NCBI RefSeq assembly: GCF_036203305.1
Contig: NZ_CP108131.1
Span: forward strand, 7,626,001 to 7,690,000
DNA length: 64,000 nucleotides
Origin: Streptomyces sp. NBC_00190
GTDB taxonomy: Bacteria; Actinomycetota; Actinomycetes; Streptomycetales; Streptomycetaceae
Reading direction: 5' to 3'
A program made the position numbers and the translations under genes. This document shows, piece after piece, positions 22,175 through 37,886 of the stretch (the first letter of the stretch is position 1; every line of letters begins with the position of its first letter). The notes below the pieces were generated by a model, which saw only the letters and a program-made list of their open reading frames with translations, searched no databases and had not been told where the DNA came from.

Positions 22175-23458
22175 TCAGACCACCGTCACCGGGTGCCGCA
22201 CGACCGCGTCGAAGAGGTAGCCCTGCGTGTTGTGGGCGGCCGTCGCGGGCTGCGTGCGCCCGGTGGCGTCGGTCGCCCGGGCCAGCAGCGCCGTGGCGCC
22301 GGTGGCCCGCGGGGTCCACGGCAGCGACCAGCGCACCCAGCTGCCCCGGCGCGGCGCGTCGTGCAACCGGGCCCGCTGCCAGCGGACCCCGCCGTCGGTA
22401 CTGACCTCCACCCGCAGCACGGGGGCCGCGCCCGACCAGGAGCGGCCGGTCAGCAGCCGCGTCCGGTGCACGGGAACGGTCGCTCCCAGCTCCAGCTCGA
22501 AGGCGCTCTTGAGGGTCTGCCGGGTGAACGGGGCGCCCTCTGCCGGATACCCGGGCCCGAACAGCTGGTAGGTGTCGGTGTTCCACGGCGAGTACAGCGC
22601 CCGGCCGCTCACCTCGATGTCACCGACCCACTTGACCGAGGAGATCCCGGTCCACTCCGGTACCACGAGGCGGACCGGACCGCCGTGGTCGGGCGGCAGC
22701 GGCCGCCCGTTCATCTCGTAGGCGAGCAGTACGTCGTCCAGCGCCTTCGAGACCGGCATCGGGCGCCGCACCCGCCCGAGGTTCACCCCGTTCGTGACCA
22801 CCTCGCCGTCCAGACCGCGCGGCAGGATGTCGACGGCGCCGCGCGTCACCCCCGCCAGCCGCAGCACGTCCGACAGCCGCGCCCCGCGCCAGTGGCCGAC
22901 ACCGATTCCGCCCAGGGTCCAGGCGGTGCCGCTGACCGGCTGGCCCTGCTGGGTGGCGTAGAAGCTGCGGCCGTTGCCCGCGCACTCGATGAACAGCGTC
23001 CGCTCGACCGCCGGCAGCGCGCGCAGCCGGTCGTACGAGAACTCGACCGGGCCGCCCGCCAGCCCGTCGCCCCACACCTTCAGCTGCCATCCGCCGGCTT
23101 CGATCCGCGGGGTGGAGGTGTGGTTCCGTACGAAGAACCGGTCGACGGGAGTGAGCGGGCCGGTGCCGCGCAGGGCGGCGAAGTTCGTCTCCGCGTTGGT
23201 GCCGCGGATGGTGAACAGCTCGGGCGGCAGCGGCTTGACGATTCCGGGCGACGCGGCCCCGTCGTCTGCGGTGGTCGCGTCGGTCGCGGCCGAGGCCGTC
23301 CCGGCCGCGCCCAGCCCCAGGGATCCGGCGGCGGTCCCCGCCGCGAACAGCCTGAGCAGGTCCCGGCGGTCCACTCCGGCGGAGCGGGCGTGGCCGCGCG
23401 CCCACTGCCGCAGGCGCGTGCGGTCGTACCGGATCTCGTCCGACGGGTCGAAGGGCAT
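22175..23458 (-). CDS. Tat-exported molybdopterin-dependent (sulfite-oxidase-type) oxidoreductase
   Basis: A 427-residue enzyme. A twin-arginine signal, RRDLLRLFAAGTAAG, starts at residue 31. The Moco domain has the cysteine ligand in IECAGNGR (about residue 159) and PDHGGPVRLVVPEWTG; the C-terminal dimerisation domain ends with WTPRATGATALLARATDATG. No haem domain is present, so an external acceptor is needed. Likely oxidises sulfite or another S/N-oxide substrate at the cell surface. ATG at 23458 has GAGGAG upstream. Confidence 0.88.
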   Translation of the reverse strand: MPFDPSDEIRYDRTRLRQWARGHARSAGVDRRDLLRLFAAGTAAGSLGLGAAGTASAATDATTADDGAASPGIVKPLPPELFTIRGTNAETNFAALRGTGPLTPVDRFFVRNHTSTPRIEAGGWQLKVWGDGLAGGPVEFSYDRLRALPAVERTLFIECAGNGRSFYATQQGQPVSGTAWTLGGIGVGHWRGARLSDVLRLAGVTRGAVDILPRGLDGEVVTNGVNLGRVRRPMPVSKALDDVLLAYEMNGRPLPPDHGGPVRLVVPEWTGISSVKWVGDIEVSGRALYSPWNTDTYQLFGPGYPAEGAPFTRQTLKSAFELELGATVPVHRTRLLTGRSWSGAAPVLRVEVSTDGGVRWQRARLHDAPRRGSWVRWSLPWTPRATGATALLARATDATGRTQPATAAHNTQGYLFDAVVRHPVTVV

Positions 23459-24199: not shown

Positions 24200-24481
24200 T
24201 CAGGCGGGGGCGGTGCCCGGAGCCTGGGCCCCGTGGCCCGCGCGGATCGCGGTGAGGGCAGCGGCGTGCAGGGCCGCGGGGGCGCCGTGGTGGGGGAGGG
24301 GGCTGCCGGTGAGCGTGTACCACTCGTCGGCGTCGGTGTACTGGACGTCGAACCGAGCCAGGCCACCGGCCGCCGCCGTGGTGCGCAGGGTGAGCGGGCC
24401 GGTGATGACGCCGACCTCGTCGGTCATCGCGCCGCCCGGCCCGGCCAGCACCCGGTCCTGCCACTGCTGTCCGTCCGTCAT
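24200..24481 (-). CDS. Small protein coupled to the HNH nuclease gene
   Basis: A 93-residue soluble protein with no family I recognise with certainty (GPLTLRTTAAAGGLARFDVQ then YTDADEWYTLTGSP). Its ATG overlaps the TGA of the preceding HNH-nuclease lipoprotein gene (ATGA), so translation is coupled. Being encoded directly after an exported nuclease raises the possibility of an inhibitor or accessory protein, but it has no export signal and no direct evidence supports this. Confidence 0.7.
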   Translation of the reverse strand: MTDGQQWQDRVLAGPGGAMTDEVGVITGPLTLRTTAAAGGLARFDVQYTDADEWYTLTGSPLPHHGAPAALHAAALTAIRAGHGAQAPGTAPA

Positions 24482-25206
24482 GAGGTACAGGTGTCCAGCA
24501 TGGTGGCGAGCATCTTCTTCTCCGGTTCGGTGACGGTCAGCGCATAGGTGGATTTGACGGTGGTCCAGGCCCGTCCGTACTGGCACCAGGCGGCCTTGTC
24601 CGGCGGCTGCCAGAGGTCCGGGCTCTGGTCGCCCTTGGAACGGTTCGAGGCCGCGGTCACGGCCAGCAGCTGCGGGTGGGTCAGGTCGTTGGCGAAGGCC
24701 TTGCGCCGGGCGGAGTCCCAGTCGGCCGCGCCCGAGCGCCAGCCCTCGGCGAGCGGCACCATGTGGTCGATGTCCATCTTCGCCGCGTCCGTGACCTGCA
24801 CCCCGTCGTAGAAGCTCTTCCAGGTGCCGGAGACGGCGCGGCACTCGGAGTCCCGTGCCACGTCCGTGCCGTCCCGCTGGAGGACCACCTCGCGGGTGTC
24901 GCACTTGTCGCCCTGCTGTGCCCAGTGCGTGAACTTGTCGCGGCTGTACCCTGCCATCGTCCCGGCCGGCGCCACCTTCAGGGCGGCCAGCTGGGTCCGG
25001 GCCACGGCCGTCGTGACCATGCCCGGCAGCACGTCCCCGCCGGCGGGCTTGCCGTCGGCCGGTACGGAGGCCTTGGGGGTGGCGCGCGGGGCGGAGGGCT
25101 TCGCGTCCGGGCCCGTTCCCGACGGGGCCGGACCGGAGCAGCCCGCCACGGTCAGCAGCAGCGACGCCAGCAGGACCGCGGCAGGCACCCGTATCTGACG
25201 AACCAT
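24478..25206 (-). CDS. HNH-family endonuclease lipoprotein
   Basis: A 242-residue exported nuclease. A lipoprotein signal with lipobox LTVAGC sits at residues 17-22, then a Pro/Ala/Lys-rich linker. The catalytic domain has MDIDHMVPLAEGW (DH motif, about residue 149), ASNRSKGDQSPDLWQPP and WCQYGRAWTTVKSTY, the DUF1524-type HNH nucleases common in actinobacteria. Paired Cys residues (CDTREV and SECRAV) probably form a disulfide. ATG at 25206; an upstream start would spoil the signal peptide. Confidence 0.86.
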   Translation of the reverse strand: MVRQIRVPAAVLLASLLLTVAGCSGPAPSGTGPDAKPSAPRATPKASVPADGKPAGGDVLPGMVTTAVARTQLAALKVAPAGTMAGYSRDKFTHWAQQGDKCDTREVVLQRDGTDVARDSECRAVSGTWKSFYDGVQVTDAAKMDIDHMVPLAEGWRSGAADWDSARRKAFANDLTHPQLLAVTAASNRSKGDQSPDLWQPPDKAAWCQYGRAWTTVKSTYALTVTEPEKKMLATMLDTCTS

Positions 25207-25405
25207 GAACCCCACCCCGAACCGACTTCGCGTCAATGTTCCCTGAACACTACCCAGAACCGGACATAAAACCGACCTCCCACCCTCCGGCGGGCGTTGT
25301 CAGTGGCGCTCGCTAGTCTCCCGGCATACCGCAGCTCAGGGGGGCTTTGACCCCCGTGTCAGGGCTGCGCGGACATGGCCGGGACAGGCGGAGGGACGCG
25401 GGCTG

Positions 25406-26272
25406 ATGGCATGGGTGGCGGCAGGCGAGGGGTACGAGATCGCCCTGGTGGAAGGGCGGGTGGCGGCACGGCCGACCACCGGCCGGTCGGCGGGGCGGCA
25501 GCTGAAGACCCTGCCCAAGGCGCTGAAGGACCATCCCGAGGTGGACCGGCTGCGCAGGCTCGCCGAATGGCTCGACCGGCACGCGGCCGCCTGCGTCGCC
25601 CAGGTCGACACCTGGATGGTGTCCTCGCTGCCCGTGCCGACCGCACTGCTCGCCCGCGTGTGGCCGGACGAGGCCTGGCAGAGCGCCCTTCGCGACCTGG
25701 CCGTGGTCGGCGACGACCCCGACGAGGTGGGCTTCCTGCGGGACGCCACCGAGTCCGGTGAGCTGAAGGTGGTCAACCTCGACGGCGAGACCGTACGGCT
25801 GTCCCCGCGCACGGTGACCCTGCCGCACCCGGTGCTGCTGCCCGACCTGGAGGACGTACGGGACTTCGCGGCCGAACTGGGCATCGTGCAGCGGGTCGAG
25901 CAGATCCACCGCGCCACGTGGCGCAAGCCCGCCGGGCTCGCGCCCACCGCCACCGAGGTACGCGACTACGCGGGCGGGGTGTTCCCCACCCGCTTCAGCC
26001 TCGCCGCCCGGGCGACCGGTCTCGGCTACCGGGTCTCCGGCGGCTACGCCACCTGCAAGGTCCGCGACACCGGCCGGGGCACGGAGGCCGCGGTGTGGAT
26101 CGGCGAGCCCTACTACGACGACGAGACCACCACGGGCGCACTGACCTGGCACGGCGAGGACGGCCGGGCGGTGCCCCTGACCGAGGTCGGACCGGTCGCC
26201 TGGTCCGAGGGGATGCGGATGGCCGCGGCGCTGTACGCCGGGCGCAAGATCGAGGAGGGCGGGGACGCGTGA
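25406..26272 (+). CDS. DUF4132-domain protein, first gene of the MoxR/VWA/SWIM locus
   Basis: A 288-residue soluble protein. The C-terminal two thirds (PHPVLLPDLEDVRDFAAELG, QIHRATWRKPAGLAP, then GYRVSGGYATCKV and GPVAWSEGMRMAAALY) resemble the DUF4132 region found at the C-terminus of E. coli YehI (formerly MolR). It is far shorter than YehI, as if the domain stood alone. Its TGA overlaps the GTG of the next gene. The role is unknown; neighbours suggest a subunit or substrate adaptor of a MoxR chaperone complex. Confidence 0.7.
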   Translation: MAWVAAGEGYEIALVEGRVAARPTTGRSAGRQLKTLPKALKDHPEVDRLRRLAEWLDRHAAACVAQVDTWMVSSLPVPTALLARVWPDEAWQSALRDLAVVGDDPDEVGFLRDATESGELKVVNLDGETVRLSPRTVTLPHPVLLPDLEDVRDFAAELGIVQRVEQIHRATWRKPAGLAPTATEVRDYAGGVFPTRFSLAARATGLGYRVSGGYATCKVRDTGRGTEAAVWIGEPYYDDETTTGALTWHGEDGRAVPLTEVGPVAWSEGMRMAAALYAGRKIEEGGDA

Positions 26273-29200
26273 GCACCACCGACAGCAGCACCGAGAACAC
26301 CATGACCAGCGACAGCACCACCGACAGCACCACCACGGGGAAGGACGGCGTGTCCGTGAGCGAGGCCGAACTGCTGCTCAAGGCCGGGGCGGTACTGCCG
26401 CACGGAACCGAGGGCGCGGGCCCCACCGCCGTCGACCTGACCGCGCGCGCCTACCGTCACCCCGCCCTCGGTGACGACCGCGTCGTCGTCCGGCTCGCCG
26501 CCGCCGAACTGGGCCCGGCCGAGGACCTCGCCGCCGGCTTCCTGGGCCTGGTGCCCGAGGAGGGCGAGCCGCCCGTCGTCGGCCTCGGCCACCGCCAGGC
26601 ACTCGGCTTCCCCGAATGGGTCCTGGTCCACCACCCCGAGGACGGCCACCACGCCCTCGCCGTCGTGCCCGAACTCGACCGCATCGCCCGGCAGGCCAAG
26701 ACGAAGCCCAAGGCGGCCCTCGACGCGTGCCACGAGCTCGCCGGGCGGCTCGCCGCCGCCGTCCCGCACTTCCTGCCGGTCTTCCACGAGCAGGCCGCCC
26801 GTATCTTCCTCGCCGTCGAGAACACCACGTACGCCGCCCAGCTGTTCGGCCGCGCCCGCACCGCGGAGGCCCAGCACGGGCTGAGCGTCGACGAGGACCG
26901 GCTGGACGCCGTCTTCCTCGAATTCGCCCTGGCCGGCGCCCTGCCGGTCAAGGTGCTCACCGGCTACGGCAAGGAACTGGCCGTCCGCGTCAGCCCCGCC
27001 GAGGCCCACGAGCGCTTCCGCCGCCTGTGCGTGCGCCGCACCGCGGGCGGGCTGCCGCCCTCCGCGCAGGCCGCCACCGAGCTGCGCCGCCTGGCCCGCG
27101 CCGCCGGCCTGACGGGCACCGAGCCCGAGCAGGACTACCTCGCCGAACTGCTGCCGCTGCCCGCCACCCTGCGCGCCGCGACCGGCTGGTGGAAGGCCCA
27201 CCGCGGCGCGCTCGTCGCCCTCGCCCGGCGCGTTCCCTCCGTACGCGGCACGCTCCTGGACCTGACCCCGCCCGGCGGCGGTGACAGCGTCGCACTCACC
27301 GGCCTGTGGCTGGACATCCTTCAGGAGTCCGGCGCCACCGCCGGGCTGGAATCGCAGGACCTGCCCGCGGAGCAGCGGTGCGCCGACGGCGCGGCCGGCT
27401 GGCTGGAGCGCTTCCACGCCGCCCGCCACGCAGGCTGGGGCACGCGCCCCACACCCCCCGCGCTGCTCGACGTCGTCACCCGCTGCGCGGCGCAGCTGCG
27501 CACCGAACTCGCGCGCCCCGGACGGGAGGCGGGCCTGCGGGTGGGCGTCGAGGACGCCGACCTCCTCGACCTGTTGCTCACACTGGAGGTCCCGGTCGCC
27601 GATCCGGACCCCGAGGACAAGAGGTACCAGCACAACCAGCTGAACCTGCGCGACTGGGCCATGGCCGACCAGCGCCGCGACCTGGCCGCGGTCGCCGCCG
27701 ACACGCGCTTCCACCCCGCCTTCCACCGGGCCCTGAACGCCTTCGGCGACGCCGCCGGCGGGACCACCGTCGTCCGGCGCGTCGCCGCCTCGACCGGCAC
27801 CCGCCCGCTGCTGGCCGAGTGGATGCGCGGCGTCGCCCGCGCCTCCACCGCGGCCGGCCTGCCCGGCGTCCCCGACGCCATCCAGCGGCTGACCTGGCTG
27901 CCCGCCGAAGCCCTGGAACTCGCTCCCGAGGAGGTCGCCGCCGCGGCCGCCACCGATCTCGGCGAGACCCTCGCCCGCACCCTGCGGGCCGGTCTCTTCG
28001 AGGAACTGGTCTGGCCCGCCTGGGAGAGCGCGGTCGCCGATCTGACACCCGGCCAGGGGCGTCAGGGACTCACCGTCGTCGAGGCCTGGCCGTACCTGAT
28101 CGTCGCCAACCAGACCCAGGTCCGCGTCATCGACGCCGACACCACCGTCCTCACGCACGACCTGCGCGTCCCCACCGGGTCCAACTACCGGTACGGATTC
28201 CACTACGTCGACGGCGACCTGCTGGTCTTCTGGTCCGCGTGGAGCGCCGACCGGACCGAGGGCTACTGGCACTCCTCGCCCGGCACCGTCTTCACCCTGG
28301 ACACCGACCGCAACCACTGGTCGCTGCGGACCGAGCACGTCTCCCTGCCGCTCCCGGACGGCGGCCGCACCACCGGCGGCGGCGTCCTGCACCGCGGGGA
28401 CACCGCGCTGCCGAGCGAGCTGCCGGTACTGTCCGACGGCACCTCGTACTGGGTGTGGCAGCGGCGCGACCATTCCTCCGAATGCGACGGGTCCTGCGGG
28501 AACCCCGGAAGCGGATGGCGCGAGTACGACCCCGCCGGCAACGCGCTGGGCCGGTTCTCCCTGCCCGGATTCCTCTCCGACGCGCTGCGTGCCCACCCGG
28601 AGGACGATGTCGCCACCGGGCAGTCCGGCTGGCTGCGGCCCGCGCCCACCGTCGAGGGCTCGGTCCTCGGCGCACCCGCCGACGGCCTGCTCGGCTGGCG
28701 CGCCGTCCGGATCCCCGGCCACGGCTGGCAGGGGACCGACACCGGCGGCCGCACCGTCACCGTGCCCGAAGGCGGCGACTACCCGATCGCCGCGCTCACC
28801 TTCCCCGGCGACGACCGTCCGCGCGCCCTGTCGCACCGCTGGCGCGAGCTGAGCATCAGCGACCCGGAGGGCGTGGTCACCGCCCAGTCCCGGGGCGACC
28901 ACCGCAAGGCGGCCTTCGCCACCGGCAGCGTGGACCTCCCGCCGCTCTCGCACTGGTACGCCCTGCGCCCGCGCGACCCGGAGGGCTCCGCCGCGCTGCG
29001 CACGGCCGACGGGGAAACCATCGGCACCCTCCTGAAGGCTGCCGCGGCGGCGGACAAGGCCGCCGACCTGCCCGACCTGGTGAGTGCCGCCCTGCCCCGG
29101 GTCACCGCCCCCCGGCTGGTCGGCGGCATCGTCGAGGTCCTGCGCTTCGCCCTCACCCAGCAGAAGGCCCTGGACGCGGTCGCCGCCCGGCTCCACCCGG

Positions 29201-31272
29201 ACGCGGGCCCCGCCGAGGAGACCGTGCAGGGCCCCACCGACCGGATCCTCGACGAGGCGCTCAGCGGACTCACGGGCGCCTCGTACTACCGCAACGGCGC
29301 GGACTCCGATGTCGCCCACCGCCTCCTGCGCGAACTCGCCGCCGCCTGCGCGCGGACCGACGCGGCCGAGGTGCCCGGCCGGCTCCACTTCGACGTGCCC
29401 GCGCTGCCGTACTCCAACCTGCGGTGGACGCCGCTGCTCGACCAGCCGGCCGCCGTCGCCTACCGGGCCGTCGCCGTCGGCGCCACCGACGAGCAGCGCG
29501 AGGCCCTCCTCGGCCTGCTCGGCGCGGTCGACGCCCTGGGCCTGGCCTCGGCCGAGGCCTCCGCCGACCGCTGGCGCCGCGTCCTGCTCCACCTCGACCA
29601 GCGCCACCTGCGCACCCCCGACGGCATCGAACGCACCCTCTACCAGCGCAGCGTGCTCCCGCTCGGCGGCGGCGCCGTCATCGCCCTGACCGAGCACAGC
29701 GAATCCGTGCCCGACGGGCAGGAGTTCGGCGCCCTGCTCCACGACCCCACCGGCCGCTTCACCGTCCCCGGGCCCTACTCCGTGCGCGGCGAGGCCCCAC
29801 TCGGCGACCCGTCGCGCGACGCCGGCTGGCTGGCCGCCTTCCTCCAGGAGGCCGCCCGCCGCGGGGCCGCGCCGTTCGTCCCCGAGGCCGCCGAGGAGTT
29901 CACCCGTCTCACCGGAGTGCCCGGCGCCCTGGCCCGGCTGGTGATCGCCGGCCTGCCCCACGTCGACACCTGGCAGAGCAATTTCCTGCCCGCCGACCTG
30001 CGGACCGCCCTCGGCGTCAAGGCCACCGAGGCCGCTCACGCCCGCAACGAGCTCAGGAGCCTCGACAGCGGGGTACGGCAGGCCGTGGTCGCGGCGCTCC
30101 TGCCCGTCGACCCGGCACGGCTGTGGACCGAGGGACCGGACGCGGCCGCCGCGGCCGACGTGTGGAACCGGCGCGTGGGCCGCCGTACGCGAGTGCCCGA
30201 CTGGCTCCTCGCCGAGGCCGCACGGGCCGTGCGCAGCGGCTGGGCCGCCCACTGCGCCCTGCCCGCCGTCCTCGACCCGGCGGCCTCGCGCGAACTCTCC
30301 GCCGACGTGGAGTGGACGGTACGGGGCGACCACGCGGAGCCCGTCCAGCCGGCCACCGAGCCCTTCACCTCGGCCGTGCTGACCGGGACCATGGCCATGG
30401 CGGCCTGGCTGGCCCACCGGCTGCCCGCGGGTGATCCCGTACGCGCCGCCCTGCCGCCCGCCCTGACCGCCGTCCGGCAGCGGCTCGCCGCGCCCGGACT
30501 GCTGCTCTGCGTCGGGCACTTCACCAGCCTGTCCGACTTCCGCAAGGCGGCGGGCACACCCACCGAGACCGGCGAGGACCACGAGCGGTACGGCGCGGTC
30601 GTCATGGCCACCCACGACGGGCAGCCCAAGCCCGCGCTGCGCCCGGCGCTGCTCGACTCCACCGGCTCCGACCCCTACTTGCCGCTGCTGCGCGGCGACG
30701 ACCAGCGGATCTCGGGAGTCGAGGCGGCGCTGCTGACCGCACACGACCCGCGCTTCGCCGCCCTGCTCGCCGACCCGGGCGCCCCGGCGGCCGGCGCCGT
30801 CGACAAGGACGGCACGTGGTGGCCGCAGGACCCGAGCAGGTCGGTCCCCGAGCTGGTCGCCGAGGTCGCCGCCGAGCACGGGCTGGGCGCGGACGCGGCC
30901 GCCCTGTACCTCGCGCTGCTCGCCATGCCCGACCCCACCGACCGCAACACCGCCCGCTGGACCGGCTGGAAGCCGGCCCGCCTCAAGGCCGCCCGCGCCG
31001 AACTGGCCGCCACCGACCTCGTGGTGTCGGCCGGCCGGAGCCGGGCCGGGCGCTCGCTGTTCCTGCCCGGCGGGTGGGCGGACATGGCCTCCCCGGCGCT
31101 GCCCGTGGAGCGGTGGAAGCTCCCGATGTACGGCCACACCCTGCCGGGCATGCTGCTGCCCGCCGAACCGGCCTCGGAGCTCTACCGCCGGGCCTGGCAG
31201 CGGGTCCGCGAAGGCGACGTACCGCGCTTCGAGGAACTCAAGGTGAAGCGCACCCGCGCCCGCCGCCGCTGA
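26269..31272 (+). CDS. 1667-residue uncharacterised protein of the MoxR/VWA/SWIM locus
   Basis: Giant soluble protein, no signal peptide or membrane segment. The GTG start in a GTGA overlap is followed by a Ser/Thr/Asp-rich disordered stretch (residues 2-26), then a long Ala/Leu-rich, helical-looking body. A middle part (about 600-930) with many Trp/Tyr/Gly, such as SNYRYGFHYVDGDLLVFW, looks beta-propeller-like and includes ECDGSCGNPGSGW. The end is basic (KVKRTRARRR). I recognise no catalytic motif. By position it may correspond to the large N-terminal part of YehI split from its DUF4132 domain, but this is inference. Confidence 0.75.
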   Translation: MSTTDSSTENTMTSDSTTDSTTTGKDGVSVSEAELLLKAGAVLPHGTEGAGPTAVDLTARAYRHPALGDDRVVVRLAAAELGPAEDLAAGFLGLVPEEGEPPVVGLGHRQALGFPEWVLVHHPEDGHHALAVVPELDRIARQAKTKPKAALDACHELAGRLAAAVPHFLPVFHEQAARIFLAVENTTYAAQLFGRARTAEAQHGLSVDEDRLDAVFLEFALAGALPVKVLTGYGKELAVRVSPAEAHERFRRLCVRRTAGGLPPSAQAATELRRLARAAGLTGTEPEQDYLAELLPLPATLRAATGWWKAHRGALVALARRVPSVRGTLLDLTPPGGGDSVALTGLWLDILQESGATAGLESQDLPAEQRCADGAAGWLERFHAARHAGWGTRPTPPALLDVVTRCAAQLRTELARPGREAGLRVGVEDADLLDLLLTLEVPVADPDPEDKRYQHNQLNLRDWAMADQRRDLAAVAADTRFHPAFHRALNAFGDAAGGTTVVRRVAASTGTRPLLAEWMRGVARASTAAGLPGVPDAIQRLTWLPAEALELAPEEVAAAAATDLGETLARTLRAGLFEELVWPAWESAVADLTPGQGRQGLTVVEAWPYLIVANQTQVRVIDADTTVLTHDLRVPTGSNYRYGFHYVDGDLLVFWSAWSADRTEGYWHSSPGTVFTLDTDRNHWSLRTEHVSLPLPDGGRTTGGGVLHRGDTALPSELPVLSDGTSYWVWQRRDHSSECDGSCGNPGSGWREYDPAGNALGRFSLPGFLSDALRAHPEDDVATGQSGWLRPAPTVEGSVLGAPADGLLGWRAVRIPGHGWQGTDTGGRTVTVPEGGDYPIAALTFPGDDRPRALSHRWRELSISDPEGVVTAQSRGDHRKAAFATGSVDLPPLSHWYALRPRDPEGSAALRTADGETIGTLLKAAAAADKAADLPDLVSAALPRVTAPRLVGGIVEVLRFALTQQKALDAVAARLHPDAGPAEETVQGPTDRILDEALSGLTGASYYRNGADSDVAHRLLRELAAACARTDAAEVPGRLHFDVPALPYSNLRWTPLLDQPAAVAYRAVAVGATDEQREALLGLLGAVDALGLASAEASADRWRRVLLHLDQRHLRTPDGIERTLYQRSVLPLGGGAVIALTEHSESVPDGQEFGALLHDPTGRFTVPGPYSVRGEAPLGDPSRDAGWLAAFLQEAARRGAAPFVPEAAEEFTRLTGVPGALARLVIAGLPHVDTWQSNFLPADLRTALGVKATEAAHARNELRSLDSGVRQAVVAALLPVDPARLWTEGPDAAAAADVWNRRVGRRTRVPDWLLAEAARAVRSGWAAHCALPAVLDPAASRELSADVEWTVRGDHAEPVQPATEPFTSAVLTGTMAMAAWLAHRLPAGDPVRAALPPALTAVRQRLAAPGLLLCVGHFTSLSDFRKAAGTPTETGEDHERYGAVVMATHDGQPKPALRPALLDSTGSDPYLPLLRGDDQRISGVEAALLTAHDPRFAALLADPGAPAAGAVDKDGTWWPQDPSRSVPELVAEVAAEHGLGADAAALYLALLAMPDPTDRNTARWTGWKPARLKAARAELAATDLVVSAGRSRAGRSLFLPGGWADMASPALPVERWKLPMYGHTLPGMLLPAEPASELYRRAWQRVREGDVPRFEELKVKRTRARRR

Positions 31273-31309
31273 CCCCGCACGCACGACTTCCCCCTACCAA
31301 GGACTCCGT

Positions 31310-32452
31310 ATGACCGTCACCGAACAGCCCGTACCCGCCCGGCAGGCGCTGCCCGCCGAGGAGCGGTACGCCGCCGAACTCGCCTTCCTCGCCGCCCAGG
31401 ACCCCGGCCCCCGCCCGCCCGGCTGGGCGCTGACCCCGCGCGCCGTCGTCACCTTCGTCTGCGGCAGCGACGGCGCCGAGCTCACCCTGCCCAAGGGCGG
31501 CGGCAAGCTCGCCATCGCCCCCAAGTTCGTCGGCGAACGGGCCCTGGTGGAGCGGTGCGTGGTCACCCTCGCCGGAGAACGCGGGCTGCTGCTCACCGGC
31601 GAGCCCGGCACCGCCAAATCGATGCTCAGCGAGCTGCTGGCCGCCGCCGTCTGCGGCACCAGCGCCCTCACGGTGCAGGGCACGGCCGGAACCACGGAGG
31701 ACGCCTTCCGCTACGGCTGGAACTACGCGCTGCTGCTGGCCGGCGGGCCGAGCGCGGGAGCCCTGGTCGACTCGCCGGTGCTCTCCGCCATGCGGACGGG
31801 GCGGGTGGTCCGCGTCGAGGAGATCACCCGCTGCCTGCCCGAGGTGCAGGACGCGCTGGTGTCCATCCTGTCCGACCGGCGGGTCAGCGTGCCCGAACTG
31901 ACCGCCACCGAGGACGCGGTGGTCTCGGCGGCGCCAGGCTTCACGGTCATCGCGACCGCCAACCTGCGCGACCGCGGCGTCTCCGAGATGTCCGCCGCCC
32001 TCAAGCGGCGCTTCAACTTCGAGACCGTCGCCCCGATCGCCGACGCGGACGCCGAGGCCACGCTGATCCGCCGCCAGGCGGTCGCCGCCGTCCAGCGGGC
32101 CGGCGCCGCCTTCGCCGTCGACGACGCGGTGCTCGACGCGCTCGTCACCGTCTTCCGGGACCTGCGTTCCGGGCGTTCCGCCGAGGGCTGGGACGTGGAG
32201 CGCCCCGGTACGGTCATGTCCACCGCCGAAGCCGTGCAGGTGGCGGCCTCGCTGGGGGTCTCGGCCGCGTACCTGCCGGGCGGGGACGTGCTGGACCTGC
32301 TGCCGGGGCACCTGCTGGGCGTCGTACGCAAGGACGACCCGGCCGACCACGGGCGGCTGCTGGGGTACTGGGACGGCCCGGTGCGCCGCCGGGCCGAGGA
32401 CGGCTCGGCGATGTGGCGCCGCCTCTGGGACCTGCGCGGGAGCCTGCGGTGA
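31310..32452 (+). CDS. MoxR-family AAA+ ATPase (YehL-like)
   Basis: A 380-residue AAA+ protein. Walker A GEPGTAKS is at residues 97-104; the Walker B region reads VVRVEEI (166-172), with Glu170-Glu171 where D-E is usual; sensor 1 is IATAN (214-218), and LKRRF (231-235) supplies the likely arginine finger. MoxR ATPases work with VWA proteins as chaperones or metal-insertion factors, and a VWA protein is encoded by the next gene. The stop overlaps the GTG of that gene. Closest in context to E. coli YehL. Confidence 0.88.
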   Translation: MTVTEQPVPARQALPAEERYAAELAFLAAQDPGPRPPGWALTPRAVVTFVCGSDGAELTLPKGGGKLAIAPKFVGERALVERCVVTLAGERGLLLTGEPGTAKSMLSELLAAAVCGTSALTVQGTAGTTEDAFRYGWNYALLLAGGPSAGALVDSPVLSAMRTGRVVRVEEITRCLPEVQDALVSILSDRRVSVPELTATEDAVVSAAPGFTVIATANLRDRGVSEMSAALKRRFNFETVAPIADADAEATLIRRQAVAAVQRAGAAFAVDDAVLDALVTVFRDLRSGRSAEGWDVERPGTVMSTAEAVQVAASLGVSAAYLPGGDVLDLLPGHLLGVVRKDDPADHGRLLGYWDGPVRRRAEDGSAMWRRLWDLRGSLR

Positions 32453-35400
32453 CGAAGACCGATCCGCGGGCCGCGGTGGACGCCCTCGCCGCGTCCGGCG
32501 AGCCGTACCTGCTCGGGGTACGCCACCACAGCCCCGCGCTGGCCGCGATGGTCCCCGCCCTGCTGGACGCCTCGGGCGCGGACGTGGTCTGCGTCGAACT
32601 GCCGACGGACTTCCAGCCGTGGCTGGAGCACCTGGCCGACCCGGAGACCGTCGCCCCGGTCGCCCTCGCGGGCACGGGCGGGGACGGCCGCCTGGCGTTC
32701 TACCCGTTCGCGGACTTCTCCCCGGAACTGGCCGCGATCCGCTGGGCCCGCGGGTCCGGCGCGGCCGTCGTCTGCTGCGACCTCCCGCTGTCCGACCGCG
32801 GCTGGACCGCGCCGGACGCCGCCCCGGGCCGGGACGCCGCCCTGCTCCCGGCTCCGGGCGCGACCCGGCCCGCGGGTCCGGCGGCGGGCTCGCCGCCGGA
32901 CCCGGCCGCGGGGGCCGGCCGTACCTTCGGCGACGGCCTCACCGCCGCCGGGACGGGCCGCGACGGTGACGACCTGTGGGACCGCGCCGTCGAGGTCCTG
33001 GCACCCGGCTGCTCCCCGGAGGCCGTCCGGCGGGCGGCCCTCGGCGTCGGTTGGGCCCTGCGCCAGGACGCGCCGGCCGTACCGGAGACGGACCTGGCCC
33101 GCGAGGCCCACATGCGGGACGTCATCGGTTCCGCCACCGCCGCGGGCCACCGGGTGGCGGCGGTGATCGGCGCCTTCCACGCCCCGGCCCTCCTGGGCAC
33201 CGGCACTGTGCCGCGTCCCCGCTCCGGCGAGGCCGGGGCGGGCGCCGGCGCGTGCGCGGACCCGGCCGTCACCTCGTTCGTGCCGTACTCCTTCGACCTG
33301 CTCGACTCCCGCTCCGGGTATCCCGCCGGGATCCGGGATCCCCTCTGGCAGCAGGCCGTCCTGCGTGCCGCGGGCGACCCCGGGCGCCTGCGGGACGCGG
33401 CCTCCGTCGCCGTCACCGGACTCTGCCGGGAGCTGCGCCGCGCCGGGCACACCGCGGGGACGGGCGAGGCCGCCGAGACCCTACGGCTCGCCTGCGACCT
33501 GGCCGCCCTGCGCGGACTCCCCGCGCCCGGGCGCGGGGAGCTCCTGGAGGCCGTCACCACCGTCCTCGGCCAGGGCGAACCCCTCGGCCGCGGCCGGGCG
33601 CTGGCCCGCGCCCTGGAGGCGGTACTCGTCGGCACCGCCCGCGGGCGGATCACCCCGCACGCGCCCCGCTCCGGCCTCGGCCCCTCCGTCGAGGCCGAGC
33701 TGGCACAGCTGCGGCTGCCCGCACCGGACGATCCCGCCCCCCGCGAGGTCCGCCTCGACCCGCTGCGCTCCGCCCTCGACGGCCGCCGCGAGGTTCTCCT
33801 CCAGCGGCTCCTGGTCTGCGGCGCCTCCTACGGCGAGCCCCTCACGGTCGCCACGACCGGCGACGGGACCGCCCTCGGTACCAAGTGGCGGCTGTCCTGG
33901 ACGCCTTCCGTCCCGGCCCGGCTCGATCTCGCCGGGGTCCGCGGCGTCACCGCCGCCCAGGCGGCCGCCGGCACCCTGCGTGACACGGCGCGCCGCGCCG
34001 CCGCCGACGGCGGGCCGACCCCGGCGCAGATCCTCGCCGGGCTGGCCGCCGCCGCGCGGTGCGATCTGCCCGAGCTGGTCGACGTACGGCTCCAGGAGGC
34101 GGCCACCGTCCTGCCGCAGACCGCGGCCCTGCCCGAACTCCTCGAGGCCCTCGACCTCCTGGAGTCCCTCCGCCGCGGCCATCTCCCGGGCACCCGCGCC
34201 GAGTCCCGTACCGCCGCCGCCGCGCTCGGCGGCGACCTGCTCGAAGCGGCGGTCCGGTCCCTGCCCGGCCTCGCGGGAAGCGACGACCCCGCCGACGCGG
34301 CCGCTCTCGTGGCCCTCGCCGACCGCGCCTCCGCGCACCACCTCGGGCTGCGCACCGACGCGGCCCTCGCGGCCCTGGCCGCCTCCGCGTCCCCGCTGAT
34401 GCAGGGCGCGGCCATGGCCGTACGGGTCCTCCTCGACCTCGATCCGGCCGCCCGGCTCGGCGACCGGGCCGCCGGCTGGATCGACGGCGCCGCCACCGCC
34501 GACGGCCGCCGCGCCCTGACCCGCCGCCTCGCGGGACTCCTCACGGCCGCCGGACCACTGCTCCAGTCCTCCCCGGCCGCCCTCGCCCCGCTCCTCGACC
34601 GCGTCGAGCACCTCACCGACCGCCTCTTCCTCGATCGTCTGCCCGCCCTGCGCGGCGGCTTCGACGCCCTTTCCCCCGCCGCCCGCGACCGGTTGCTGGA
34701 CACGGTGGCCGAGCGGCTGGGCGACCGGATCGACCTCGCGCTCGACGCGCCGCCCGCGCTGCTCGCCCTCTGGGCCGCCGCCGACGCTGCCGGGCTCGCC
34801 GCCCTGGGTGAACTCCCGCTGCCCGCCGCGGACGCGCCGCCGCTCCCGATGCCGCAGACCACCACGGCCGCCGAAGCGATCGAAGCCGTCGAAGCGGTCG
34901 ACGCCCCGCGCGCACCCGCCCCCACCGGCCTGCGGCTCGCCCCCGCCGACCGCTGGCGGCTGCTGCTCGGCCGCGAACGCGACCGCCTCCCCGCGGGCGC
35001 CCGCCGCTACGCCCACGCCCTCGACGAGCTGTACGGCGCCGGCCGTGGCGAAGGCGCCTCGGGCGTCGACGGCGGCCAGGGCGGCGGCCAGGAGGCCTCG
35101 TTCCCCACCGCCCGCGAGTGGTCGCAGGAGCTGGAGGCGCTGTTCGGCGCCGACGTACGGGAGGAAGTGCTGGGCGAAGCGGCCGGAGCGGGCCGCACCG
35201 ACGTACTGGCCCAGCTCGACCCGGCGACCGTACGCCCCTCCGTGGAACTGCTCAGCTCCGTCCTGTCCCTCGCCGGCGGGCTGCCCGAAGCCCAACTGGC
35301 CCGGCTGCGCCCCCTGGTCAGGAGACTGGTCGACGAACTCGCCAAGGAGCTGGCCACCCGGCTGCGCCCGGCCCTCTCCGGCCTCGCCACCCCGCGTCCC

Positions 35401-36045
35401 ACCCGCCGCCCCGGCGGCAGGCTCGACCTGGCCCGCACCCTGCGCGCCAACCTCGCGCACACCCGGCGGCGGCCCGACGGAAGTGTGGTCGTGGTCCCGG
35501 AACGGCCGGTCTTCAGCACCCGGGCGAACCGCGAGAGCGACTGGCGGCTCATCCTCGTCGTCGACGTCTCCGGCTCGATGGAGGCGTCCGTCATCTGGTC
35601 GGCGCTCACCGCGGCCGTACTGGGCGGCGTACCGACCCTGTCCACCCACTTCCTCGCCTTCTCCACCCAGGTCGTGGACCTCACCGACCGGGTCGAGGAC
35701 CCGCTCTCGCTCCTGCTGGAGGTCCGCGTCGGCGGTGGCACGCACATCGCCGCCGGACTCGCGCACGCCCGCTCGCTGATCACCGTTCCGAGCCGCACCC
35801 TCGTCGTCGTGGTCAGCGACTTCGAGGAGGGTGCCCCGATCGGCGGGCTCCTCGGAGAGGTCCGCGCACTCGCCGCCTCCGGCGCCCAACTCCTGGGCTG
35901 CGCCGCGCTCGACGACACCGGCACGCCCCGGTACTCGGTCCCGGTCGCCCGGCAACTCGTCACGGCCGGCATGCCGGTGGCCGCCCTCAGTCCGCTCGCC
36001 CTTGCCCGCTGGGTCGGCGACCGCCTCCGTGGAGAATCCCGTTGA
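32449..36045 (+). CDS. DUF5682-VWA fusion protein, MoxR partner
   Basis: A 1198-residue protein. The N-terminal half begins YLLGVRHHSPALAAMVPALL and has AAVIGAFHAPALLG near residue 240, as in DUF5682 (E. coli YehM-like). A helical linker leads to a C-terminal von Willebrand A domain: MIDAS motif DVSGS at about 1038-1042, GGGTHI at about 1095, and VVSDFEEG at about 1122. In E. coli the counterparts YehM and YehP are separate, so this is a fusion. GTG start overlaps the ATPase stop; TTGA overlap with the next gene. Probably the metal-binding cochaperone of the MoxR ATPase. Confidence 0.85.
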   Translation: MTKTDPRAAVDALAASGEPYLLGVRHHSPALAAMVPALLDASGADVVCVELPTDFQPWLEHLADPETVAPVALAGTGGDGRLAFYPFADFSPELAAIRWARGSGAAVVCCDLPLSDRGWTAPDAAPGRDAALLPAPGATRPAGPAAGSPPDPAAGAGRTFGDGLTAAGTGRDGDDLWDRAVEVLAPGCSPEAVRRAALGVGWALRQDAPAVPETDLAREAHMRDVIGSATAAGHRVAAVIGAFHAPALLGTGTVPRPRSGEAGAGAGACADPAVTSFVPYSFDLLDSRSGYPAGIRDPLWQQAVLRAAGDPGRLRDAASVAVTGLCRELRRAGHTAGTGEAAETLRLACDLAALRGLPAPGRGELLEAVTTVLGQGEPLGRGRALARALEAVLVGTARGRITPHAPRSGLGPSVEAELAQLRLPAPDDPAPREVRLDPLRSALDGRREVLLQRLLVCGASYGEPLTVATTGDGTALGTKWRLSWTPSVPARLDLAGVRGVTAAQAAAGTLRDTARRAAADGGPTPAQILAGLAAAARCDLPELVDVRLQEAATVLPQTAALPELLEALDLLESLRRGHLPGTRAESRTAAAALGGDLLEAAVRSLPGLAGSDDPADAAALVALADRASAHHLGLRTDAALAALAASASPLMQGAAMAVRVLLDLDPAARLGDRAAGWIDGAATADGRRALTRRLAGLLTAAGPLLQSSPAALAPLLDRVEHLTDRLFLDRLPALRGGFDALSPAARDRLLDTVAERLGDRIDLALDAPPALLALWAAADAAGLAALGELPLPAADAPPLPMPQTTTAAEAIEAVEAVDAPRAPAPTGLRLAPADRWRLLLGRERDRLPAGARRYAHALDELYGAGRGEGASGVDGGQGGGQEASFPTAREWSQELEALFGADVREEVLGEAAGAGRTDVLAQLDPATVRPSVELLSSVLSLAGGLPEAQLARLRPLVRRLVDELAKELATRLRPALSGLATPRPTRRPGGRLDLARTLRANLAHTRRRPDGSVVVVPERPVFSTRANRESDWRLILVVDVSGSMEASVIWSALTAAVLGGVPTLSTHFLAFSTQVVDLTDRVEDPLSLLLEVRVGGGTHIAAGLAHARSLITVPSRTLVVVVSDFEEGAPIGGLLGEVRALAASGAQLLGCAALDDTGTPRYSVPVARQLVTAGMPVAALSPLALARWVGDRLRGESR

Positions 36046-37886
36046 CCAGCACCGACACCCAACTGCCGCCCGTCGCACCCGAGGTGCTCGCCGAGGCGGT
36101 GGAGCAGCTCAGCGCCCGACTGCGCAAGAAGCTGGACGCCGCCACCGAGGGCTGCGCCGCCCTCGCCGTGCGGACGGCGGACGGCGAGGTCGTCCTCGGC
36201 TTCGGGGAGGACGCCGTGGTCACGCTGCGCCCCGGTCCCACGGGCGCGGTCACCCTCGCCGAACAGGCCGCGTGCACCTGCCTGTTGGCCCCGCGCTGCC
36301 TCCACCGCGCCGCCGCCCTGGGCGCCGCCCCGCTGGCGGACGCCGGGCCGTCGGCGGACGCCGGGCCGCCGCCGCCCGTACCGGAGGGGCGGACGGCGGC
36401 ATCCGAGCCCGATGCGGTGTCCGTCTCCGTCTCCGTGTCCGAGGGCGAGCCCGAGCCCGAGTCCCGGCCCGAAGCCACGCTCACCGACGCGCAACTGCAC
36501 GCGGCGCACGCCCTCTGGCAGGCCGCCGCCGAGGCCCTCGCCGCCGGGGCCACCGCCGGGGGCGCCGTCGTCCAGGCCGAGCTGCTGCGCGCCGCACACA
36601 CCGCCCGCCTGGCCGGGCTGCCGCGCGCGGAGGCGGCCGCCCTGCGCGTCGTACGCGGCTTGCGCGCCGCCCGGGAACGCCGGGCCGCCCAGCGGCTCGG
36701 CGATCTCACCACGGCATTCCGTGAACTCCTGCGCACCGCCGCCCTGCTGGCCGCCGGATCCGCCTCCCCCGCGCTGACCGGCACCTCCCGCCGCGCCTAC
36801 GCTCCGGGCGGCAGCCTCCAGGTGTACGGCCTGTGCCGGGAGCCCGTGCTCTCCGCCACCGGGTACGGGGGAGTGGTCACCCACCTGCTGGCCCCCGACG
36901 GCGCCGGCTACTCGGTCTCCGACGTGCGCCCGGGCGGCCTGGCCCGGGCACGCGGCGCGGGTTCGGCCTCCGTCGCCCTCGGCGGCGCCGCCCTCGACCA
37001 CGCCGGGCTGGCCCGCGGTGGCCTGCGCATCGCCGGCGCGACCGTCTCCCCCGAGGGCAGGCTCGGCGCCGGAGGCGGGGTCCAGGCGACCCCGCTGCGC
37101 GGAACACCCTGGAGCGAAGGACCCGCCGCGGCGCTCTTCGCCCGGCCGGCGGCCGAGGCGGTCGCCCGCGCGCTGGCCGAAGCGGACGAGGCCGAGCCCG
37201 CCCTGCTCGGATGCGACGTCACGGTCGTCGGTGCGGCGGGCGAAGACCTCCTCGTCCGCGAGGCACGTCCCGACGGACCGCTGCTCCGGCTGCGGCCCGC
37301 CCACCCCCACCCGGAGCTGCCGCACACGGAGAACCTGCGCCGCCTCGCCTCGTACCCCGGCCTGACGCTGCGGATCCTGGGCCGCCCCGACCTGGACCGG
37401 GCCGCGACCCTGCGGCCCCTCGCCGTCGGACCGGTGCCCGGCGCCGAGCACACGCTGCGGCTGCCCGAGGAATGGCTGGGCCGCGCGGACCTCGGCTACG
37501 ACCGGCTCCAGGGCGGCCACTTCCCGCCGCGGACCGCCTGCCCGGCCCCGGAGCCGGCTTCCGTCGGACCGGACCCCCTGGCCGACTCCCCGCTGTGGCG
37601 CGTACGCCGCCTCCTGGAGACCGGGGTCGCGGGCGGCCGCCGCGCCGTGGCCGAGGCCGCGCGGGGCACCGAACCCCTCGCCGCGTACGGTCCGCTGCGC
37701 CGGGCCGGGCTCACCGCGGGGGCGGAGCTGGCCACCGCCCTCGCCGCCGAGGCGGACCGCCGCCCCCGCGACGTCTTCGGCCGGCTCGCCGACTCCTCGG
37801 CCGAGGCCTACGCCCGCGCCTGGCTGGCGGCCGCCGCCTACCTGGCCGCGGCGGAACGCTCCCTGGTCCGCGCGTCCTGGACCTGA
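36042..37886 (+). CDS. SWIM zinc-finger protein
   Basis: A 614-residue protein. The SWIM motif CTCLLAPRCLH (CxC-x5-CxH) is at residues 78-88, after the beta-hairpin GEVVLGFGEDAVVTLRPG. SWIM domains bind DNA or protein. The rest is Ala/Arg/Leu-rich with no recognised domain; an acidic low-complexity stretch (VSVSVSEGEPEPESRPEA) lies at about 126-146. TTG start in a TTGA overlap with the VWA gene. Counterpart of E. coli YehQ by context. It ends the operon; a hairpin follows. Confidence 0.82.
   Translation: MTSTDTQLPPVAPEVLAEAVEQLSARLRKKLDAATEGCAALAVRTADGEVVLGFGEDAVVTLRPGPTGAVTLAEQAACTCLLAPRCLHRAAALGAAPLADAGPSADAGPPPPVPEGRTAASEPDAVSVSVSVSEGEPEPESRPEATLTDAQLHAAHALWQAAAEALAAGATAGGAVVQAELLRAAHTARLAGLPRAEAAALRVVRGLRAARERRAAQRLGDLTTAFRELLRTAALLAAGSASPALTGTSRRAYAPGGSLQVYGLCREPVLSATGYGGVVTHLLAPDGAGYSVSDVRPGGLARARGAGSASVALGGAALDHAGLARGGLRIAGATVSPEGRLGAGGGVQATPLRGTPWSEGPAAALFARPAAEAVARALAEADEAEPALLGCDVTVVGAAGEDLLVREARPDGPLLRLRPAHPHPELPHTENLRRLASYPGLTLRILGRPDLDRAATLRPLAVGPVPGAEHTLRLPEEWLGRADLGYDRLQGGHFPPRTACPAPEPASVGPDPLADSPLWRVRRLLETGVAGGRRAVAEAARGTEPLAAYGPLRRAGLTAGAELATALAAEADRRPRDVFGRLADSSAEAYARAWLAAAAYLAAAERSLVRASWT

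Follow-up and report, generated by a model that had tools for sequence, protein, structure and literature searches.

A MoxR-VWA gene cassette of Streptomyces with a PafBC/RecA-NDp-type promoter motif: a candidate DNA damage-inducible remodeling machine

What is the function of a bacterial gene cluster in which a MoxR AAA+ ATPase and a VWA domain are encoded together with DUF4132, DUF5682, and SWIM proteins? We addressed this question for a five-gene cassette of Streptomyces sp. NBC_00190, whose genome comprises 8.9 Mb in two contigs. The stretch under study (positions 7626001-7690000 of NZ_CP108131.1; 64,000 nucleotides (nt)) is called the window, and unprefixed coordinates refer to it. A preliminary description, made from the sequence alone, had singled out five co-directional genes as one system and left its job (stress, metal, or defense) unassigned. 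Judging from the sequence, we consider it somewhat probable that the cassette encodes a DNA damage-inducible MoxR AAA+/VWA remodeling machine with a probable hydrolase domain. Papers are cited by PMC identifier.

A damage-type promoter motif at a five-gene cassette

All five genes lie on the + strand. The first (25406..26272) encodes a DUF4132 protein of 288 amino acids (aa; PF13569, E 5.3e-29) and is followed by the gene for a 1667-aa giant protein that belongs to no Pfam family (26269..31272). Next come a 380-aa MoxR AAA+ ATPase of the YehL type (31310..32452; AAA_5, E 2.8e-36), a 1198-aa DUF5682-VWA fusion equivalent to YehM plus YehP (32449..36045; PF18934, E 1.7e-210; PF05762 (VWA_CoxE), E 2.5e-63), and a 614-aa SWIM zinc-finger protein homologous to YehQ (36042..37886). 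Three junctions are 4-nt overlaps and one, before the MoxR gene, is a 37-nt gap; a recheck of the coordinates confirmed every gene and junction of the preliminary description. The giant and the fusion genes start with the GTG of a GTGA overlap and the SWIM gene with the TTG of a TTGA, a start that is uncertain, as a codon-bias caller favors 36084 (600 aa) over the TTG at 36042. The same three 4-nt overlaps are present in the annotation of a Streptomyces atratus megaplasmid. An NCBIfam scan of the cassette proteins found no family above its cut-off, and the named relatives of the window's proteins are mostly from Streptomyces.

The window's only strict match to the RecA-NDp/PafBC-type motif, TTGTCAGTG-N8-TAGTCT (25297..25319, + strand), starts 109 base pairs (bp) before gene 1. 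The consensus tTGTCRgtg-8nt-TAnnnT defines a RecA-independent damage promoter (PMC5656591), which is bound by PafBC (PMC6789036, PMC8223512). Of 95 distinct upstream regions of DUF4132 genes, 38 contain a strict match (a spacing of 7-9 between the halves being allowed), compared with 8 of 18,819 stretches drawn at random from these loci; counting strict or loose forms, the figures were 60 of 95 and 70 of 18,819 (0.4%). Two hundred rounds of dinucleotide resampling yielded zero strict matches in the DUF4132 upstream regions, and TTGTCAGTG was the commonest 9-mer upstream of 100 DUF4132 genes (35/100). The loose motif also precedes the cassette in loci L083, L089, L092, L095, and L096, and the strict one in L111 from Umezawaea; the other genera of motif-bearing loci are Nonomuraea, Actinocorallia, Rhizohabitans, and Micromonospora.

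The host genome contains nine strict sites, and a reversed-pattern control gave zero. Three of the nine sit at the three MoxR-VWA loci of this genome; one site before recA and one before a uracil-DNA-glycosylase gene act as positive controls. The cassette thus resembles the PafBC/RecA-NDp regulon in its exact promoter motif, which host recA also carries, and RecA-NDp promoters have been described at recA and SCO6735 in Streptomyces (PMC5087735). In the available literature texts, the cassette genes are not named as members of this regulon; two other MoxR proteins, MoxR1 and MoxR2 of Mycobacterium smegmatis, had lowered levels in a pafBC deletion (PMC5656591). Identified solely by its WYL domains and location, a tandem WYL gene pair about 8 kb from Pup occupies the place expected for PafBC. 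As the promoter motif is that of DNA-damage genes, it suggests that the cassette may help cells to survive such damage.

An actinobacterial LexA box was also considered and rejected. With up to two mismatches, CGAACNNNNGTTCG was found upstream of DUF4132 in 21 of 100 cases, little more than the 14 of 100 given by a single mononucleotide shuffle; in the window it gave 57 matches for 40.6 expected, with none between 23144 and 25855.

The host genome holds two further relatives of the MoxR. At a sister locus (C1:4823000-4842900), the MoxR (46%), DUF5682 (35%), VWA (38%), and promoter motif are like those of the cassette, but the genes form divergent operons, MoxR-DUF5682-VWA against SWIM-DUF5691, and DUF5691 replaces DUF4132 and the giant. 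We found the strict motif at this locus in 35 of the 40 genomes fetched, which were those with the better DUF5682 matches. DUF5682 itself occurs in 98 of 101 family genomes, by score mostly in the sister-locus arrangement. The third MoxR-VWA locus (C1:842000-861900; L005:9752-16968) encodes 157-aa, 473-aa, VWA, MoxR, and 935-aa proteins, the last weakly similar to DUF5682 (E 1e-4), and has a strict motif upstream.

Conservation across genomes and the E. coli yeh cluster

Counting the host, the giant is present in 46 of the 101 family genomes. Our family set comprised 39 loci (L039-L077) from 38 of the 45 other giant-bearing genomes, seven being left out. All six domains occur in the same order and strand in 32 of these loci; the other seven are cut by contig ends (L050, L051, L054, L066) or incomplete (L043, L048, L049). 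L048 retains DUF4132 and the giant without the MoxR part, and L043 is without the VWA part, its DUF5682 and SWIM matches nearly touching, as after an internal deletion.

A second set, of named genomes, was drawn from a MoxR family search as the best 80 of 594 confirmed loci; these are the closest relatives and not a random sample, and they partly overlap the family set. They are mostly from actinomycetes, and the matches listed also include deltaproteobacterial, Myxococcales, Sandaracinaceae, Planctomycetes, Verrucomicrobia, sphingomonad, Pseudomonas, Gilliamella, Clostridium, Brevibacillus, and Spirochaetales records. Among the 59 named loci with at least 6.5 kb on each side of MoxR, the downstream side carries DUF5682 in 58, VWA in 59, and SWIM/YehQ in 58, and the upstream side carries the giant in 47 and a DUF4132 or YehI-type protein in 55. 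In the remaining four, the YehI-type gene lies downstream (L150, L159) or downstream on the other strand (L151), or only giants are present (L109). Two forms can be distinguished. In the GIANT form, found in actinomycetes, myxobacteria, and a planctomycete, DUF4132 is a short protein of its own, the giant is present, and a single gene encodes DUF5682 together with VWA. In the Yeh form, DUF4132 is the last part of a large protein, and DUF5682 and VWA are encoded separately. Scans of four such large proteins found HEAT repeats above the cut-off in L145 and below it in L155.

Co-occurrence in other genomes, the test that the preliminary description had set for linkage of the five genes, held up in both sets, and its pairing of MoxR with VWA is supported. 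The products may also assemble into a single physical complex, as that description proposed. Because this order is conserved in other genomes, chance assembly of the five genes is excluded. The distances between cassette families also co-vary (r 0.885-0.962, 70 loci), which, with no species-tree control, is weak evidence. Flanking genes vary between loci except within groups of near relatives; in the window, a divergent neighbor with a GmrSD_C domain (24478-25215, - strand) has a 190-bp intergenic region in common with gene 1.

The components had been matched by motif to E. coli YehI, YehL, YehM, YehP, and YehQ. The match stands for four genes out of five. The exception is the giant, which matches neither YehI (hhalign probability 0.3) nor DUF4132 by profile comparison and also gave no blastp match to YehI, L, M, P, or Q, the only E. 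coli proteins searched. The idea that the giant is a split-off piece of YehI is rejected on the same hhalign value. The MoxR is 47% identical to YehL (E 1e-94, blastp), and YehM (DUF5682, 27%) and YehP (VWA, 39%) are both matched by blastp, although they are separate proteins in E. coli and fused here. The SWIM protein aligns with YehQ (hhalign probability 98.6). Gene 1 aligns with the C-terminal part of YehI only (97.3, YehI columns 936-1219), the rest of YehI being unmatched: YehI ends in DUF4132, whereas in the cassette DUF4132 is a separate 288-aa protein and the giant is added. The order of DUF4132, MoxR, DUF5682, VWA, and SWIM is the same in both organisms, and these comparisons mark the cassette as the actinobacterial counterpart of E. 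coli yehI-yehQ.

The promoter type differs in E. coli K-12. There, yehF-yehH(pseudogene)-yehI-yehK-yehL-yehM-yehP-yehQ form a co-directional run, and a LexA-type box, CTGGATAAAATTACAG, found with the pattern CTG-N10-CAG, starts 25 bp before the first gene, yehF, which encodes a WGR protein. The exact pattern CTGTN8ACAG has no match in this locus (L001). We take yehF-yehH to be molR remnants. A LexA-type box thus heads the cluster, and putative LexA control may reach as far as yehL; molR is listed as LexA-regulated (PMC11039860). In Deinococcus, DRA0165-DRA0166 (DUF4132 in DRA0166) have a DdrO site at -83 and are mitomycin-induced in an IrrE-dependent manner (PMC8533742); these genes share with the cassette DUF4132 and, in Deinococcus, damage induction, but their regulator is DdrO. 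In one case, Clostridium ganghwense, a near-consensus Gram-positive LexA box precedes the YehI-type gene.

These observations bear on another explanation, in which the cassette is a chaperone for protein quality control in general, is not specially tied to DNA damage, and has a motif that marks only a stress promoter. A chaperone-like role is assumed for MoxR proteins (PMC3893208), and the PafBC regulon includes oxidative-stress genes too (PMC8223512). The distinct DNA-damage regulators in three lineages argue against this explanation, which we regard as very unlikely.

The cassette proteins and their relatives

The MoxR motifs GEPGTAKS, VEE, ATAN, and RRF are all intact in the alignment. With RavA the protein shares 27% over 130 aa (E 3e-4), so that YehL is its nearer relative; a comparison with ViaA gave E 0.054, and the sequences are not of the RavA-ViaA type. 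As in YehL-type loci, DUF5682, VWA, and SWIM adjoin MoxR in that order; DUF4132 is not the terminal part of a large YehI-type protein. Of the two MoxR ATPases of E. coli K-12, RavA and YehL, the latter has been studied less (PMC3893208). Only 1 of 50,697 records in a phage collection has a MoxR match; this record, from a human fecal sample, encodes a 41% relative (MT835988.1:12858-13913).

The structural model of the DUF5682-VWA protein (pLDDT 82.9) predicts an alpha/beta part, then a long helical stretch, then VWA. In the N-terminal alpha/beta part (32500..33336, + strand), alignments of 44 and 43 sequences revealed invariant RHH, E, SPE, D, RE, and G..H columns, with the invariant His, Glu, and His placed after strands of the model. 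A 2His/2Glu signature has been described for the TIKI/TraB/erythromycin-esterase superfamily (PMC6254334), and this part of DUF5682 is a candidate TIKI/TraB-like hydrolase domain. The VWA domain (35533..36039, + strand) contains the metal-site motifs DVSGS, GGGT, and SDFEEG. In the SWIM protein, the ligand motif CTCLLAPRCLH (36273..36305, + strand) supplies CxC...CxH ligands that recur among 104 relatives in 97 cases, whereas the PF04434 score of 15 bits falls under the Pfam cut-off of 19.6.

Searches of PDB sequences matched the MoxR to Midasin and NorQ and gave nothing relevant for DUF5682-VWA, but by Foldseek its VWA resembles that of a NorQD complex, a NorQD chain ranking second. The cassette shares with NorQ-NorD the pairing of a MoxR ATPase with a VWA partner (PMC13036017, PMC9976466); it differs in having no nitric oxide reductase seen alongside and in its extra DUF5682, DUF4132, SWIM, and giant components. 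The likeness raises the question of whether the cassette is a NorQ-NorD-like metal or cofactor insertion chaperone, as DUF4132 is related to MolR, for which a connection with molybdate was once proposed, and a molybdopterin oxidoreductase gene lies nearby (22175-23458). This neighbor is not constant, because the flanks differ between loci (its homologues were not searched singly), moeA and moeB of Deinococcus radiodurans were unchanged (PMC8533742), and the promoter motif is that of DNA damage. A metal chaperone is therefore an unlikely explanation.

The giant matched nothing in Pfam, NCBIfam, or a PDB sequence search, and many of its relatives carry the source-database name "DNA-binding protein." A beta-propeller-like region is predicted at residues ~571-913 (27979..29007, + strand). 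Near the C terminus, residues ~1522-1604 (30832..31080, + strand) contain a conserved DPTDRN..RWTGWKPARLK..R motif; this conservation and the helix pattern of the model suggest a possible winged-helix-like region. Five records of 0.8-1.3 Mb Streptomyces plasmids (e.g. NZ_CP108284.1) contain at least 80% of the giant, and the one examined in full holds the entire cassette. The host also has a lone giant paralogue (C1:961844-966553; L078) with no other cassette relatives within the 19.9 kb fetched, and some actinobacterial loci (L109, L119, L092) have more than one giant gene. A 2317-aa "giant-DUF5682 fusion" (P0111) was not used, as no MoxR match separates its giant and DUF5682 portions and it has the look of a chimera made by read-through.

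The cassette is also like the MoxR-vWA ternary systems of Kaur et al. 2020 (PMC7159879) in its MoxR and VWA core, its further large proteins, and its propeller-like region, which the model places in the giant, whereas in those systems the beta-propeller is fused to the vWA protein. They have been proposed as conflict systems enriched in multicellular bacteria (PMC7159879). By analogy, the cassette might be an anti-phage or suicide system in which MoxR-VWA restrains an effector (DUF5682 or the giant) and frees it on damage or infection. The patchy distribution of the giant, its occurrence on megaplasmids, the variable flanks, and a sub-threshold match of the MoxR to bpMoxR (20 vs 27 bits) are in agreement with such a role, and damage induction fits it as well. 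On the other side, PADLOC returned nothing above noise (best E 0.053), no exchanged effector domains were seen in the loci compared, and the published third components were unmatched: no VMAP, iSTAND, or FtsH name occurs among the Pfam matches of the five proteins, with Pfam model coverage unchecked. The main text of PMC7159879 does not mention SWIM, DUF4132, DUF5682, or YehL. The near-universal sister form and the deep conservation with E. coli also speak against a conflict system, which we hold to be possible, if rather improbable.

Proposed function

For the DNA damage-inducible remodeling machine that we favor, the following mechanism can be envisaged. On DNA damage, PafBC would switch the operon on, and translational coupling would hold the subunit ratio constant. 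The MoxR ring may dock on the VWA domain, by analogy with NorQ on NorD, and spend ATP on pulling or reshaping a client; the DUF5682 solenoid, DUF4132, and the giant would hold this client. Contacts with nucleic acid or protein would come from the SWIM protein and from the giant, through its propeller-like region and the possible winged helix at its C terminus, and the DUF5682 N-terminal domain, with its invariant His and Glu, would hydrolyze the client or a bond within it. Our guess is that protein complexes stuck on damaged DNA are the likeliest clients.

Several observations weigh against this proposal. For four of the nine strict sites of the host, no evident repair gene lies close by (a VWA-like protein of 352 aa follows one of them at 63 bp; L165:1501-2619), and the motif is not confined to MoxR-VWA loci, because between 7 and 40 strict sites occur in each of 20 other family genomes, against three control matches in all. 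The orientation of the motif at the sister locus is always away from MoxR-DUF5682-VWA, in locus L006 toward SWIM-DUF5691, and 5 of the 40 loci are without it; two genomes outside these 40, G003 and G015, have no listed site near DUF5682. Neither motif form was found in 35 of the 95 DUF4132 upstream regions; of ten such actinobacterial regions inspected, five have TGTCRGTG-N8-TAnnnT, in which the first T is missing. All five non-actinobacterial loci counted (L132, L133, L135, L136, L138) are without the motif, and Yeh-form loci have no consistent SOS box, only that of C. ganghwense being plausible. In the Streptomyces venezuelae LexA study, an initial search suggested a lack of conservation of the M. 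smegmatis PafBC motif in that species (PMC9380542). Finally, the Foldseek rows listed contain no TIKI-family folds, which proves nothing, the whole-model searches being filled by VWA and helical-repeat matches.

No described job for the E. coli YehL cluster, and no description of the cassette as a damage system, was found in the literature searched, which excluded subscription papers. Our searches found no paper with two of DUF4132, MoxR, and DUF5682 and none joining MoxR, SWIM domain, and von Willebrand; DUF4132 is named in three papers, and DUF5682 and DUF5691 in none. At least two of yehI, L, M, P, and Q occur together in six papers, one of them on a genome-reduced E. coli strain. The protein families and the E. 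coli gene neighborhood were already known, and the new part is the DNA-damage link. More tentatively, the YehL-type MoxR-VWA systems, from E. coli to Streptomyces, might form an unrecognized branch of the DNA-damage response, a TIKI-like-hydrolase AAA+ machine that dismantles or cleaves DNA-trapped proteins under lineage-specific wiring by PafBC, LexA, or DdrO.

Together, these data suggest that PafBC-type control is real in Streptomyces, a point left open by one study (PMC9380542). An orphan cluster spread over several phyla gains a testable regulatory clue from the streptomycete motif and from the hints in E. coli and Deinococcus.

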